Positions 12,540 to 37,040 of a stretch of 64,000 nt of DNA are shown one piece after another. The position numbers and the translations under genes are program-made. Numbering within the stretch: the stretch's first letter is position 1; every line of letters starts with the position of its first letter. The stretch is taken from the NCBI GenBank assembly GCA_015059015.1, contig SVBG01000002.1, forward strand, positions 237,636 to 301,635. Reading direction: 5' to 3'. A model generated the notes under the pieces. The model ran no database searches and was not told the origin of the DNA. It was given only the letters and a program-made list of their open reading frames with translations. This stretch comes from Erysipelotrichaceae bacterium (GTDB taxonomy: Bacteria; Bacillota_I; Bacilli_A; ML615J-28; CAG-313).

Positions 12540-14153
12540 ATGAATAATTTAAGCAAAAATGAACTTAAAGAAAAAGTAGTAGATTATGCAGAAAAAGTAT
12601 TTTTCTTTTGTGTAAAAAGATGTAATTCTAGAATGGATGCAGAAGACTTATCACAAACAATACTTTTAGAAGTTTTAGAAAATATCGATAAAGGTGCACA
12701 TATCGATAATATGGACTTCTATATTTGGGGAGTATGTAAAAATCAATACAACATGTATTTAAGAAGAACTATTAAAAATAGAAATAATCTTGAATTAAAT
12801 GAAGAAGAAATTAATATATATAGTGATAATTCTAAAACACCTCTTGAAGAGCTTTTAGAAGATGAAAAGATAAGAAAGATGAATAGTGCAATTAAGTTAC
12901 TTAGTAAGGACTATGCTGAAATACTTTACGCTTATTATATAGAAGATAAAACTTTAAAGTTTATTGCGGAAGAATTAAAGTTACCTCTTGGAACAGTCGG
13001 AAGAAGACTGTCAGATATTAGAAAAAAGTTGAAGGAGTATATAGATATGGAAAGATTAAATGGTAAAAAGGCTTATGTGCCTAAAAACTTTCAGGTAGTT
13101 CAAAGTTTTAGTGGGAATTTAAGTTTTAACCCAAGTAAAGTTGTATATCCATTATTAATTAAAAATTTATTATATCATTCATATGGAATTGAATGTAGTA
13201 TTGAAGATTATTCAATTGAACTTGGAATTGCTAGACCTTATATTGAAGATTATGTTAAAGAATTAGTTAATAAAGATTTTTTAATTAAATTAGAAAATGG
13301 AAAATATTTAACTAATATTGCTTTTATTAATAAAAAAGAAAGAAGAGAAATTTTAGATTTCGCAAGAGAGAATATTTCTGGATATTATAATGCAATTGTA
13401 AACTTTACAAAAGAAAATTTAGAATTTTATAAATCATTGCTTGATGAAACCGATGCACTTGATGAACATTTAATGTGGTCATTTATTTGTTTAACAATGG
13501 TTATTGCAGAAAATGTGTTAAGAACTGATTTTACACTTAGAAATGATGGAACAAATTGGGATGTTATATTATTAGAAACGCTTGATAAATTATATAATGA
13601 TGAATTCTTTATTTCATTTAATGGACGTAATGGTGATTATAATGGTCGTCATTTATGTGCTTATGCATTTCCTGCAGATCATTGGAAAGAAGATGGTGGA
13701 GCCTCTGATGTAATTGCTTATAATAATGCTTTAACAGGAACATATGATTTAAATATTTTATATGAAGTATTAATTAAAAATACAAAGTATAGCGAGATGG
13801 ATGAAGAAAATAAAGTAAGTGTAGACAAATATGTTGAAATGGGAGCATTTACTATTGTTGATGATAGTATTAAAGTTAATATTCCAGTAATAACGATTGA
13901 AAATTATAAAGAATTAAAGAACAAAATTACTAGCGATGAATCATTAATTTCTGCATATAAAGAGTTATATAATGGAATATATATGAAAGTAAGAAATCTA
14001 ATCCCTAGTTATTTAGAAAAACAAACTCCATTTATTATTCAAGCAATCTTACTTGATCGTTCTTTAATTTTACATAGAGCATTTGAAGAAGGTATTATTA
14101 AAGCTGATAAGTCAAGAAAAGTATTTATTTATAATGGTGTTATTATAAAATAG
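12540..14153 (+). CDS. ECF-type sigma factor with a ~370-residue C-terminal extension
   Basis: 537 residues. Residues 12-80 match sigma region 2 ('DAEDLSQTILLEVLENI...FYIWGVCKNQYNMYLRR'). Residues 105-160 match region 4 ('LSKDYAEILYAYYIEDKTLKFIAEELKLPLGTVGRRLSDIRKKL'). ECF sigmas are normally about 180 residues. Here a winged-helix-like block (about 200-260) and a large unrecognised domain with conserved-looking aromatic motifs ('HLCAYAFPADHWKEDGG') follow. No anti-sigma gene is adjacent. The extension may be a built-in sensor or inhibitor, as in other ECF groups with C-terminal extensions. The caspase-like gene is next, but a terminator separates them. Confidence 0.8.
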   Translation: MNNLSKNELKEKVVDYAEKVFFFCVKRCNSRMDAEDLSQTILLEVLENIDKGAHIDNMDFYIWGVCKNQYNMYLRRTIKNRNNLELNEEEINIYSDNSKTPLEELLEDEKIRKMNSAIKLLSKDYAEILYAYYIEDKTLKFIAEELKLPLGTVGRRLSDIRKKLKEYIDMERLNGKKAYVPKNFQVVQSFSGNLSFNPSKVVYPLLIKNLLYHSYGIECSIEDYSIELGIARPYIEDYVKELVNKDFLIKLENGKYLTNIAFINKKERREILDFARENISGYYNAIVNFTKENLEFYKSLLDETDALDEHLMWSFICLTMVIAENVLRTDFTLRNDGTNWDVILLETLDKLYNDEFFISFNGRNGDYNGRHLCAYAFPADHWKEDGGASDVIAYNNALTGTYDLNILYEVLIKNTKYSEMDEENKVSVDKYVEMGAFTIVDDSIKVNIPVITIENYKELKNKITSDESLISAYKELYNGIYMKVRNLIPSYLEKQTPFIIQAILLDRSLILHRAFEEGIIKADKSRKVFIYNGVIIK

Positions 14154-14185: not shown

Positions 14186-14222
14186 AAAGCATCATTAGTC
14201 TTAAAAGATTAATGATGCTTTA
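14186..14222 (+). terminator. Terminator after the sigma factor gene
   Basis: AAAGCATCATTAGTCTT pairs with AGATTAATGATGCTTT (one G-T pair) around a short A-rich loop and is followed by T residues. Confidence 0.75.
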
Positions 14223-14308
14223 ATGCTTATTAACTCCAATTATGTATTAATTATGATATAATTAAAATAATCTTGTAAGTTTAATGCGAAGTAGTGGAGG
14301 AATAATTT

Positions 14309-14827
14309 ATGTCTAATAAAGTAAAAATACTATGTTTTGATGATGCGCTTGAAGCAATAACAATAAGAAGTGTTCTAGAAAGTTTTGATGCAAAGGTAGA
14401 AATTGCTTATATTGGTAGACCTAATGCTTTTATTGAAGAATTGAATAATTCAGATGATTATAAGTATATTATTTTTTCAGGTCATGGTGATAATAAGTTT
14501 ATTATGCCAGTACTTGCAGAAGAAATATATGTAGAAGATGAACCTAAGGATATAACAAGTGAAGTAATTAAGGAAAAGATTAATATTAATAATAAAATAA
14601 TAATTTCTATGTGCTGCAATACTGGTACTACTAATATTGCTGAATCATTTATTCAAAAAGGGAATACTTATATTGCACCAAGTGACTTTATAGAAGGTAC
14701 TGCTGCTTTATTTTTTGTTATTAAATTCTTCTACGAACATTTTGTTTTGAAGAAATCAATTGTTGATTCGTATAATAATTCAATAATAAATGATGATGAA
14801 ACAAGATTATATAAATTATTTAAATAA
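14309..14827 (+). CDS. Small caspase/CHAT-like (clan CD) protein
   Basis: 172 residues. 'KYIIFSGHGD' (His59) and 'KIIISMCCNTGTTNIAES' (Cys103 aligning with the CHAT SACNTG motif) form the His/Cys dyad pattern of clan CD peptidases. 'GTAALFFVIKFFYEHF' fits the helix after the active site in CHAT domains. There is no signal peptide or extra domain, so it is a bare protease-sized fold. The ATG follows GGAGG and an extended -10 (TGATATAAT). It sits next to the sigma factor with the long extension. An activity on that protein is only a possibility. Family-level call from motifs. Confidence 0.65.
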   Translation: MSNKVKILCFDDALEAITIRSVLESFDAKVEIAYIGRPNAFIEELNNSDDYKYIIFSGHGDNKFIMPVLAEEIYVEDEPKDITSEVIKEKININNKIIISMCCNTGTTNIAESFIQKGNTYIAPSDFIEGTAALFFVIKFFYEHFVLKKSIVDSYNNSIINDDETRLYKLFK

Positions 14828-14948: not shown

Positions 14949-15046
14949 AAAAGGGAGTAGAAACCATTTAGTTTCATAAATGGAGTGTGGCTCATCAATA
15001 CAGTGGAAACACTCGGGCGCATTTGAAATTTCGAGACTTTTACCTA
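14949..15046 (+). promoter_or_regulatory. yybP-ykoY-type (Mn2+) riboswitch
   Basis: The leader contains the conserved order GGGAGTAG ... CATCAATACA ... CGGGCGCAT ... GAGACTTTTACC, which I recognise as the yybP-ykoY aptamer. P1 is formed by AAAAG at 14949-14953 with CTTTT at 15037-15041. The same CTTTTACC segment is the 5' arm of the terminator that follows. Metal binding that stabilises P1 should therefore prevent termination (ON switch). The class senses Mn2+ in studied cases. A covariance-model search would confirm it. Confidence 0.75.
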
Positions 15047-15073
15047 ATTAGTTTTAGGTAGGAGTCTCTTTTT
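15033..15073 (+). terminator. Riboswitch expression-platform terminator
   Basis: A 15-bp stem (15033-15047 with 15054-15068, two G-T pairs) is followed by TTTTT. Its 5' arm overlaps the 3' side of aptamer P1. Confidence 0.85.
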
Positions 15074-15162
15074 ATTTTATAATTAAATAGTTTTTAGGTG
15101 GAGTCTGTCAAATATAACGGGTGGATTCTATTTGCCATTTTTTAGTTTTGAAAGGAGAAATT

Positions 15163-16761
15163 ATGGGAATAGATAACATTTTAAATTTAATTGCCGGATT
15201 AGCGTTGTTTTTACTTGGGATGAATTCTATGGGTAGTGGTTTAGAAAATGCCTGTGGGAATAAAATGAAAACAATTTTAGAAAAATTAACAGCTAATCGG
15301 TTTTTAGGAGTAATTGTCGGAGCATTAATTACAATGGTAATTCAATCATCTTCTGCAACTACAGTAATGGTAGTAGGATTTGTAAATGCAGGAATGATGA
15401 CATTGTCTCAAGCTGTTTGGATTATTATGGGTGCAAACATTGGTACAACAATTACAGGTCAATTAATTGCGCTTGATATTGGATTTATTGCGCCAATATT
15501 TGCGGTTATTGGTGTTATTATGATTGTATTTTTAAAGAAAGCTACATTAAATGAAATTGGTAAAATATTATGTGGTTTTGGTGTTCTTTTTATTGGTATG
15601 GATATGATGAGTTCTGCTATGGCACCATTAAGAGATATGCCTGAGTTTGTGAGTTTAATGACTAAATTTTCAAATCCAATTTTAGGAATACTTGCAGGTA
15701 TGGTGTTTACGATAATTATTCAATCATCATCAGCATCAGTTGGTATTTTACAAGCTTTAGCAATAAGCGGTGCTATAGGACTTGAAAGTGCAGTATTTGT
15801 ATTATTTGGACAAAACATTGGTACTTGTGTTACTGCATTACTTGCATCAGCGGGAACAAATAGAAATGCGAAAAGAACAACACTTATTCATTTTATCTTT
15901 AACTTTACAGGTACTGTGTTATTTACTGTTTTATGTTTAGTTACCCCATTAACTACTTTAGTGAAGAAAATATCTGGAGATAATCCATCTCAACAAATTG
16001 CTAATATGCATACGATATTTAATGTTGCTACAACACTGTTACTTTTACCACTTGGTTCATATTTAGTTAAGCTTGCAAATATTATATTACCAGACAAAGT
16101 GATTGAAAGTGAATCTATATTTAAATATCTTGGTCATGATATAAATACAAAAGTTGGTGGTACGGCGATACATTTAGAAAATACTAGATTAGAAATTAAT
16201 AGAATTTATGAATTGTCGATTGAAAACTTAAACAATAGTATTAATTATTTATTAGGAGAAAAAGTAGATACTAGTGATATATTAGAAAAAGAAGATTTAA
16301 TTGATAAGTTAAATGAGGGTATAACAAAAGAAATTACTGATTGTATTTCTCATGAGTCAAATCATGCAGTTAGTGAAAGCTATAGTGCATATTTAAATAT
16401 AACTCACAATATTGAAAGATTAAGTGACCATGCAGTTAATTTAATGGAATATGGAAATGAGTTTAGAGAAAGAAATATAATTATAAATAAAATAGTTAAA
16501 GAAGAGATTAAAACATATAAAGAAATTATTAATCAAATGTTGGATATAAGTATGGATCCTTTAAAACTTAATGAAGTTGAACAATTAGAAGATAGAACAG
16601 ATAAAATGACCATTGAATATAAAGCAAATATGGTAAAACGATTAAGTACATCAATTTGTACAGCAGAAGGGTCAATAATTTATTCAAATATCTTAATTAA
16701 CTTTGAAAGATTAGGAGATCATTTATTAAATATTTCGCAAAACATATCAAAAATTAAATAA
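15163..16761 (+). CDS. Na+/phosphate cotransporter family protein with PhoU-like tail
   Basis: 532 residues. The membrane part carries the duplicated Na/Pi cotransporter signature: 'VIQSSSATTVMVVGF' near residue 60 and 'IIQSSSASVGILQAL' near 190, each followed by 'GANIGTT' or 'GQNIGTC'. The C-terminal ~200 residues are charged and helical with PhoU-like repeats ('HNIERLSDHAVNLMEYG', 'INFERLGDHLLNISQNI'). An upstream start at 15121 has no ribosome binding site; ATG 15163 follows AAAGGAG. It lies behind the Mn-type riboswitch and 17 bases before the exchanger. Direction of phosphate movement and the link to Mn2+ are not shown. Confidence 0.88.
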   Translation: MGIDNILNLIAGLALFLLGMNSMGSGLENACGNKMKTILEKLTANRFLGVIVGALITMVIQSSSATTVMVVGFVNAGMMTLSQAVWIIMGANIGTTITGQLIALDIGFIAPIFAVIGVIMIVFLKKATLNEIGKILCGFGVLFIGMDMMSSAMAPLRDMPEFVSLMTKFSNPILGILAGMVFTIIIQSSSASVGILQALAISGAIGLESAVFVLFGQNIGTCVTALLASAGTNRNAKRTTLIHFIFNFTGTVLFTVLCLVTPLTTLVKKISGDNPSQQIANMHTIFNVATTLLLLPLGSYLVKLANIILPDKVIESESIFKYLGHDINTKVGGTAIHLENTRLEINRIYELSIENLNNSINYLLGEKVDTSDILEKEDLIDKLNEGITKEITDCISHESNHAVSESYSAYLNITHNIERLSDHAVNLMEYGNEFRERNIIINKIVKEEIKTYKEIINQMLDISMDPLKLNEVEQLEDRTDKMTIEYKANMVKRLSTSICTAEGSIIYSNILINFERLGDHLLNISQNISKIK

Positions 16762-36932: not shown

Positions 36933-36939
36933 AATGATA

Positions 36940-37010
36940 GTTATACAACTGACGGATTGTGGAGTATACCATATGGGAGTATAACATAATGAGTGTCGAC
37001 CGTCTGGGCA
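36940..37010 (+). promoter_or_regulatory. ZTP (pfl) riboswitch controlling the purine operon
   Basis: P1 is TTATAC (36940-36945) with GTATAA (36978-36983). Between them lie ACTGACGG, then a GTGG...ACCA hairpin, then GGGA, the order of the pfl aptamer. After a short linker comes CGACCGTCTGGGCA (36997-37010), which matches the conserved CCGNCTGGGCA half of the aptamer. Its last bases are the 5' arm of the following terminator. ZTP or ZMP binding should prevent termination, turning on purine and one-carbon genes when 10-formyl-THF runs short. Recognition is by motif; a covariance search would settle it. Confidence 0.87.
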
Positions 37011-37040
37011 TATTTCTTACGTTAGAAGTATGCCCTTTTT
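37006..37040 (+). terminator. ZTP riboswitch terminator
   Basis: A 12-bp stem (GGGCATATTTCT / AGAAGTATGCCC, one G-T pair) followed by five T residues. Its 5' arm shares bases with the aptamer 3' motif. Confidence 0.88.

Follow-up and report, generated by a model that had tools for sequence, protein, structure and literature searches.

Peptidases of clan CD carry a Gly next to the catalytic His and are built on a six-stranded sheet, with five strands parallel and one antiparallel, and conserved helices; their S1 pockets are partly formed at the start of helix 1. The C-terminal end of strand 3 carries the catalytic His, and the end of strand 4 carries the Cys (PMC4357240). Among CHAT proteins, SAVED-CHAT, from type III CRISPR, fuses CHAT to a SAVED sensor, and TPR-CHAT, i.e. 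Csx29 of Craspase, is a caspase-fold protease that works with Cas7-11 and Csx30. CHAT proteases serve as effectors of type III CRISPR systems (PMC11229360). In type III-E CRISPR a TPR-CHAT protease acts on a sigma-factor inhibitor, and sigma factors under the control of a protease exist there (PMC10028731).

The gene analysed here lies in a 64,000-nucleotide stretch of an Erysipelotrichaceae genome (contig SVBG01000002.1, positions 237,636–301,635; hereafter the window), and its product resembles each of these proteins in predicted fold while differing from all of them in build. SAVED-CHAT (8tl0) is the best solved fold match, and a weak and nonsignificant profile alignment (E 1.5) runs through the Cys region, whereas the window protein has no sensor. 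Csx29 shares the fold, yet neither of its partners turned up as a constant neighbour of window-type genes. Gingipain RgpB (C25) is the second-best fold match but is larger, with pro- and other domains, in contrast to the window protein, which has no extra domain. Metazoan caspases and legumain have the same order of strands and helices, with His and Cys at the ends of strands 3 and 4; by contrast, the window protein lacks a prodomain, and it lacks a caspase-type cleavable linker because only 19 residues, about half of them helical, separate strands 4 and 5 in its model. Its 172 residues make it shorter than the matched caspase, gingipain, and CHAT chains, and part of the usual substrate cleft may therefore be missing.

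Gene, conserved residues, and predicted fold

An earlier note, made from the sequence alone, had described a minimal stand-alone caspase/CHAT-like protein of 172 residues beside an unusual sigma factor, with SGHG (His59), SMCCNTG (Cys103), and nothing else. Translation of the open reading frame confirms this description, Cys103 being the second Cys of its motif, and the minus strand opposite the gene has many stops (features in Table 1). A 98% identical copy in the same genus differs by 7 synonymous changes over about 101 sites and 4 nonsynonymous changes over about 415 sites, a pattern that indicates purifying selection between these two sequences. With this copy and diverged homologues in other families (25–46% identity), the frame is a conserved gene rather than a chance one.

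A promoter scan of the window gave 11 matches compared with 10.6 in shuffles, i.e. no excess. The Rfam scan of the window placed no known RNA family near the gene; its sole match is a ZMP/ZTP riboswitch (RF01750, 54.5 bits) at 36935–37016. Separately, a possibly structured leader (14950–15070) with a terminator-like hairpin (15033–15068) precedes a Na/Pi cotransporter gene (15121–16761), and this leader has no Rfam match.

Table 1. Features at the caspase-fold locus, in window positions
Feature	Position	Strand	Basis or remark
Predicted single-domain caspase-fold (clan CD type) protein, 172 aa	14309..14827	+	ORF, translation, 36-sequence family, AF2 model, PDB fold matches
Codons His59-Gly60, predicted catalytic His and adjacent Gly	14483..14488	+	36/36 homologues; DSSP of model
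Codon Cys103, predicted nucleophile	14615..14617	+	36/36 homologues; DSSP of model
Family-specific loop, residues 66–79, between His59 and helix 3	14504..14545	+	Column counts
Shine-Dalgarno-like GGAGGA	14296..14301	+	Sequence; 7 nt 5' of ATG
16-pair hairpin (4 G-C pairs), terminator-like, tail partly T	14186..14221	+	Between sigma gene and caspase-fold gene
ECF-type sigma factor, ~370-residue unassigned C-terminal extension	12540..14153	+	Pfam/NCBIfam regions 2 and 4

The conservation alignment holds 36 full-length sequences, including the near-identical copy from the same genus. Dropped from it were L025/L030, in which a truncation precedes the Cys; L063/L064, a single gene broken across two frames, in whose pieces both dyad motifs are readable; L059, which is only a short piece; and L060, a large protein of another kind that has a DTHG...NGSC domain. 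L026–L029, L031, L032, and L061 repeat loci that were already included and were set aside. Both His59 and Cys103 occur in all 36 sequences, and no loss of either was seen among the aligned homologues. M1, R20, E24, G36, P38, G60, G106, G130, F136, and Y142 are likewise invariant, R37 is kept in 35 of 36, and the residue at position 15 is acidic throughout (E in 28, D in 8). In the loop of residues 66–79, M66, P67, L69, Y74, E78, and P79 are each kept in 33–35 of the 36, and from its position the loop likely shapes the active-site cleft. The motifs GRP (36–38), MPxL (66–69), and EP (78–79) are strongly conserved and specific to this family. Its Cys-x-[TL]-G pattern resembles CHAT.

The AlphaFold2 model, built from 8 sequences, has a pLDDT of 93.3 and a pTM of 0.91. 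DSSP assigns strands to residues 3–9, 28–34, 53–57, 97–100, 120–124, and 168–171, and helices to 13–25, 38–46, 84–90, 108–115, 130–146, and 151–158. His59 comes just after strand 3 and Cys103 just after strand 4, i.e. where clan CD enzymes carry their catalytic pair, and the invariant G60 takes the place of the clan's His-adjacent Gly. The six modelled strands and six helices follow the caspase order, and superposition on clan CD chains (Z 12–16 over 144–162 residues) agrees with the clan's six-stranded sheet. The window protein is thus predicted to form a complete caspase/haemoglobinase fold.

Comparison with solved structures points the same way. Among 26 Foldseek matches in the PDB at E ≤ 0.001, 25 belong to clan CD, the best of them being SAVED-CHAT 8tl0 (3e-7). 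VIA-align also places SAVED-CHAT first (Z 16.4, 162 of 172 residues, 2.8 Å, 13% identity), followed by RgpB (15.2), separase (14.4), the C-terminal region of DdvA (14.2), Craspase TPR-CHAT (13.3), caspase-7 (13.3), and legumain (12.7). Of the best 50 matches listed, 48 are named clan CD proteins and the remaining two are DdvA. Structure prediction therefore yields a caspase-like fold, with clan CD leading the PDB matches, and the invariant dyad together with this predicted fold supports the proposal of a minimal stand-alone caspase/CHAT-like protein.

DdvA deserves separate mention. It is a membrane anti-sigma factor whose residues 801–991 (PDB 8rw5/8rot) superpose on the fold of the window protein, and this constitutes an independent link between the caspase fold and sigma control.

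Family assignment and distribution

Searches with the window protein returned nothing significant in Pfam, NCBIfam, PADLOC, PHROGs, or the PDB sequence search, and none of the named peptidase families was matched at the sequence level above its cut-off. Profiles of 5 and 36 members reached no named structure at a significant E-value. Specifically, Pfam CHAT (PF12770) lists no match for the window protein or the other alignment members scanned, and at E ≤ 1 the window protein is matched neither by the metazoan-type caspase model (C14A, PF00656) nor by the gingipain model (C25, PF01364), the gingipain likeness being one of fold only. Because these family tests fail, we file the protein as a clan CD-type domain rather than as a Pfam CHAT, caspase, or gingipain. 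In the part of the literature covered by our search there was no paper on this family.

Two further proteins are unusual. L058:1456–2067 (minus strand) encodes a divergent, 25% identical single-domain protein with SAHG and SAACTGG that is weakly Pfam-CHAT-like (13.1 bits with PF12770, cut-off 24), and it suggests that small caspase-fold proteins form a wider set. L060:1–2448 (plus strand) encodes the large Paenibacillaceae protein mentioned above, which has a caspase-like region with the DTHG...NGSC pattern and proline-rich linkers and is matched by no Pfam peptidase model.

The family is rare. The gene is present in 1 other of 4 genomes of the same genus, i.e. the 98% copy, and beyond that copy none was found in the 60 relatives searched once chance matches were set aside. 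Weak matches with E of about 1e-4 and worse, in this search (L003) and in the class-sample, phylum-sample, and viral-contig searches (L006–L015 and L017), were treated as chance; those in L003, L008, and L017 belong to proteins that are TrkA-like or are very long phage proteins. Two further clear homologues (47% and 40% identity) came from a sample of the class comprising 395 genomes. In a phylum sample, 9 of 392 genomes had matches at E ≤ 0.01, the convincing ones being only the window itself and genome G082.

A scan of genome contigs found 8 loci with a caspase-fold gene: the 98% copy in a goat-caecum Bacilli MAG, an unassigned MAG, an Oscillospiraceae MAG, a Haloplasma MAG, Priestia endophytica, Paenibacillus campinasensis, Virgibacillus proomii, and a truncated copy in Mycoplasmatota zrk7. 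Among plasmids, one record, the mobilizable pBEH1 of Priestia filamentosa, carries the gene. Profile searches matched 29 of 245 genomes at E ≤ 1e-5 in the family of P. campinasensis (27 near full length, one fragment, and one large different protein), 3 of 291 in the class on the Oscillospiraceae side, and 1 of 16 in the family of Priestia, namely the query itself. Overall, relatives are scattered through Bacillota and Mycoplasmatota, mainly in Paenibacillaceae. Most Paenibacillaceae copies group together in the tree, two sit with Bacillaceae, and the window copy is on a long branch. The phage collection held no match to the protein, and viral contigs gave one chance match in one search and none in another.

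Broken copies also occur, one truncated (L025:9977–10387, plus strand, in zrk7) and one split over frames (L063, in genome G865). Because the family is rare and such copies exist, the gene is dispensable.

Candidate functions

The reading that we favour, with fair confidence, is that of a free-standing clan CD cysteine peptidase domain, reduced to its catalytic core and encoded alone, in which His59 activates Cys103 and control operates through expression or dimer formation. With fold and dyad taken from prediction and conservation, the protein is probably an active cytosolic endopeptidase, and Cys103, once activated by His59, would attack a peptide bond in a cytosolic protein. Position 15, always acidic and located at the start of helix 1 in the S1-pocket region, hints that a basic P1 residue would be preferred. 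Window-type proteins lack a sensor, a prodomain, a membrane segment, and a fixed partner, and because a regulatory domain is absent, control would probably act at the level of expression or through dimers. The protein looks like a member of an unnamed small clan CD protease family rather than the partner of a sigma factor.

The strongest competing account keeps the caspase fold and gives up proteolysis: Cys and His would serve acyl transfer, ligation, redox, or ligand sensing, or the protein would bind peptides only. A caspase fold with its dyad is no proof of proteolysis, the GRP, MPxL, and EP motifs are particular to this family, and no peptidase model in Pfam matches window-type proteins. 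However, the closest fold matches of known activity are endopeptidases, and the His-Gly/Cys-x-x-Gly arrangement is invariant; we regard a non-peptidase as possible yet unlikely.

The patchy distribution, the copy on a mobilizable plasmid, and the two Paenibacillaceae copies that the tree sets with Bacillaceae would also suit a defence effector acting as an abortive-infection protease, as would the CRISPR role described for CHAT proteases. Such a function is improbable here: PADLOC gives no match, neither a sensor partner nor a defence neighbour is conserved, and the phage collection has no counterpart.

More improbable still is a protease that acts solely on the extended sigma factor next to it, cleaving so as to release or destroy that factor in the manner of Csx29, Csx30, and CASP-sigma. 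The two genes do adjoin on one strand in two genomes of the same genus; in the window, where the earlier note had pointed out their proximity, the sigma gene lies 155 nt upstream, and the type III-E CRISPR protease provides a precedent. The hairpin of Table 1, however, stands between them. We compared 34 neighbourhoods, and positional counts cover 31 of these because the ORF picker missed the central gene in three (L073, L082, and L088). The extended sigma factor adjoins the caspase-fold gene in 2 of the 34, i.e. the window genome and its 98% relative, and two members of one genus are nearly one observation; the other 32 have no adjacent sigma factor of the extended type. The L066 neighbourhood contains, somewhere along its length, one more weak sigma match (E 8.4e-5). 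The factor is multi-copy, with five matches in the genome of the window and others in G003, G007, G011, and G041, and it is found in 5 of 60 relatives; three of these (G007, G011, and G041) have no protease match. Because adjacency is confined to one genus and this multi-copy factor occurs in protease-free genomes, the pairing is local and most likely incidental; the proposed partnership is not borne out, and we rejected the sigma factor as part of a system. The CRISPR type of linkage between protease and sigma factor is not seen either, given the 2 of 34 and the finding of no Cas or SAVED domain in six window proteins, i.e. the caspase-fold ORF and the five upstream.

No gene is constantly beside the caspase-fold gene in these neighbourhoods, and none is kept beyond close relatives. 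The most regular neighbour is a gene of the S9 prolyl oligopeptidase type (PF00326; the L078 copy matches at E 2e-58), which stands at +1 in L071, L077, L078, and L080 and at +3 in L081, all from one Paenibacillaceae clade. About 4 kb from the P. campinasensis homologue, L022:14312–15189 translates into CRISPR-array-like repeats (FNPRTRIECD), again not a constant neighbour.

Finally, a generic alpha/beta domain of Rossmann or receiver-like type, in which the HG...C pair arose by chance, has next to no likelihood and is strongly disfavoured by the AlphaFold2 model, Foldseek, and VIA-align: receiver-like proteins appear far down the fold lists and one profile match is to a response regulator (E 2), whereas clan CD matches lead by a wide margin across nearly the whole chain and the dyad is invariant.

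A leader in Paenibacillaceae

Among 26 Paenibacillaceae leaders inspected, 15 combine a short upstream ORF with a predicted hairpin that would sequester the Shine-Dalgarno (SD) sequence (L035, L036, L037, L039, L041, L043, L045, L046, and L048–L054). The upstream ORF has 3–7 codons, its own SD-like site, an ATG 115–130 nt 5' of the gene, and a TAAC stop context. On its 3' side lie a GC-rich GGGCCCGA-like stretch and an anti-SD CCTCC, which is able to pair with the SD of the gene. The encoded peptides vary (MKK, MKITIL, MTNTKR, MVNRKR, MKRSIYL, and others), and it is therefore the leader element rather than the peptide that is conserved. The window copy has no such leader.

A search for the core leader pattern found it in 7 of 240 genomes, every time upstream of the caspase-fold gene. 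An RNA-model search of 245 genomes recovered the same 15 copies and no others; because no more than 15 candidates per genome were scored, its silence elsewhere is weak evidence. No Rfam family matched the leader when 20 sources were scanned. In the consensus fold there are only 4 pairs, none with two-sided change, and z-scores of 10 leaders range from -2.4 to +0.3. The CCUCC:GGAGG pairing is present in the minimum-energy fold of 9 of the 10 and in the centroid of the tenth. Statistical support for the leader fold is modest.

The arrangement has the architecture of erm-type translational attenuators, and the sequences suggest that the leader may be a translational attenuator of the caspase-fold gene. 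A gene-specific leader of this kind would fit translational control in Paenibacillaceae. Extending this, we put forward only tentatively, as a rather unlikely proposal, that these free-standing caspase-fold peptidases, minimal (172–195 aa) yet complete, need no sensor or activator domain and that in Paenibacillaceae the leader blocks their synthesis until translation is disturbed. If true, this would be a bacterial caspase-like enzyme made only upon disturbance of translation.

Most of the bacterial caspase-like proteases met in this work as solved structures are parts of CRISPR systems or of larger sensor proteins. A catalytic core that is soluble, has an invariant dyad, and lacks any attached regulator would make a convenient minimal model of the caspase fold. 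It would also raise the question of how a bare caspase is restrained, to which the Paenibacillaceae leader offers a testable answer, i.e. control at the level of translation.
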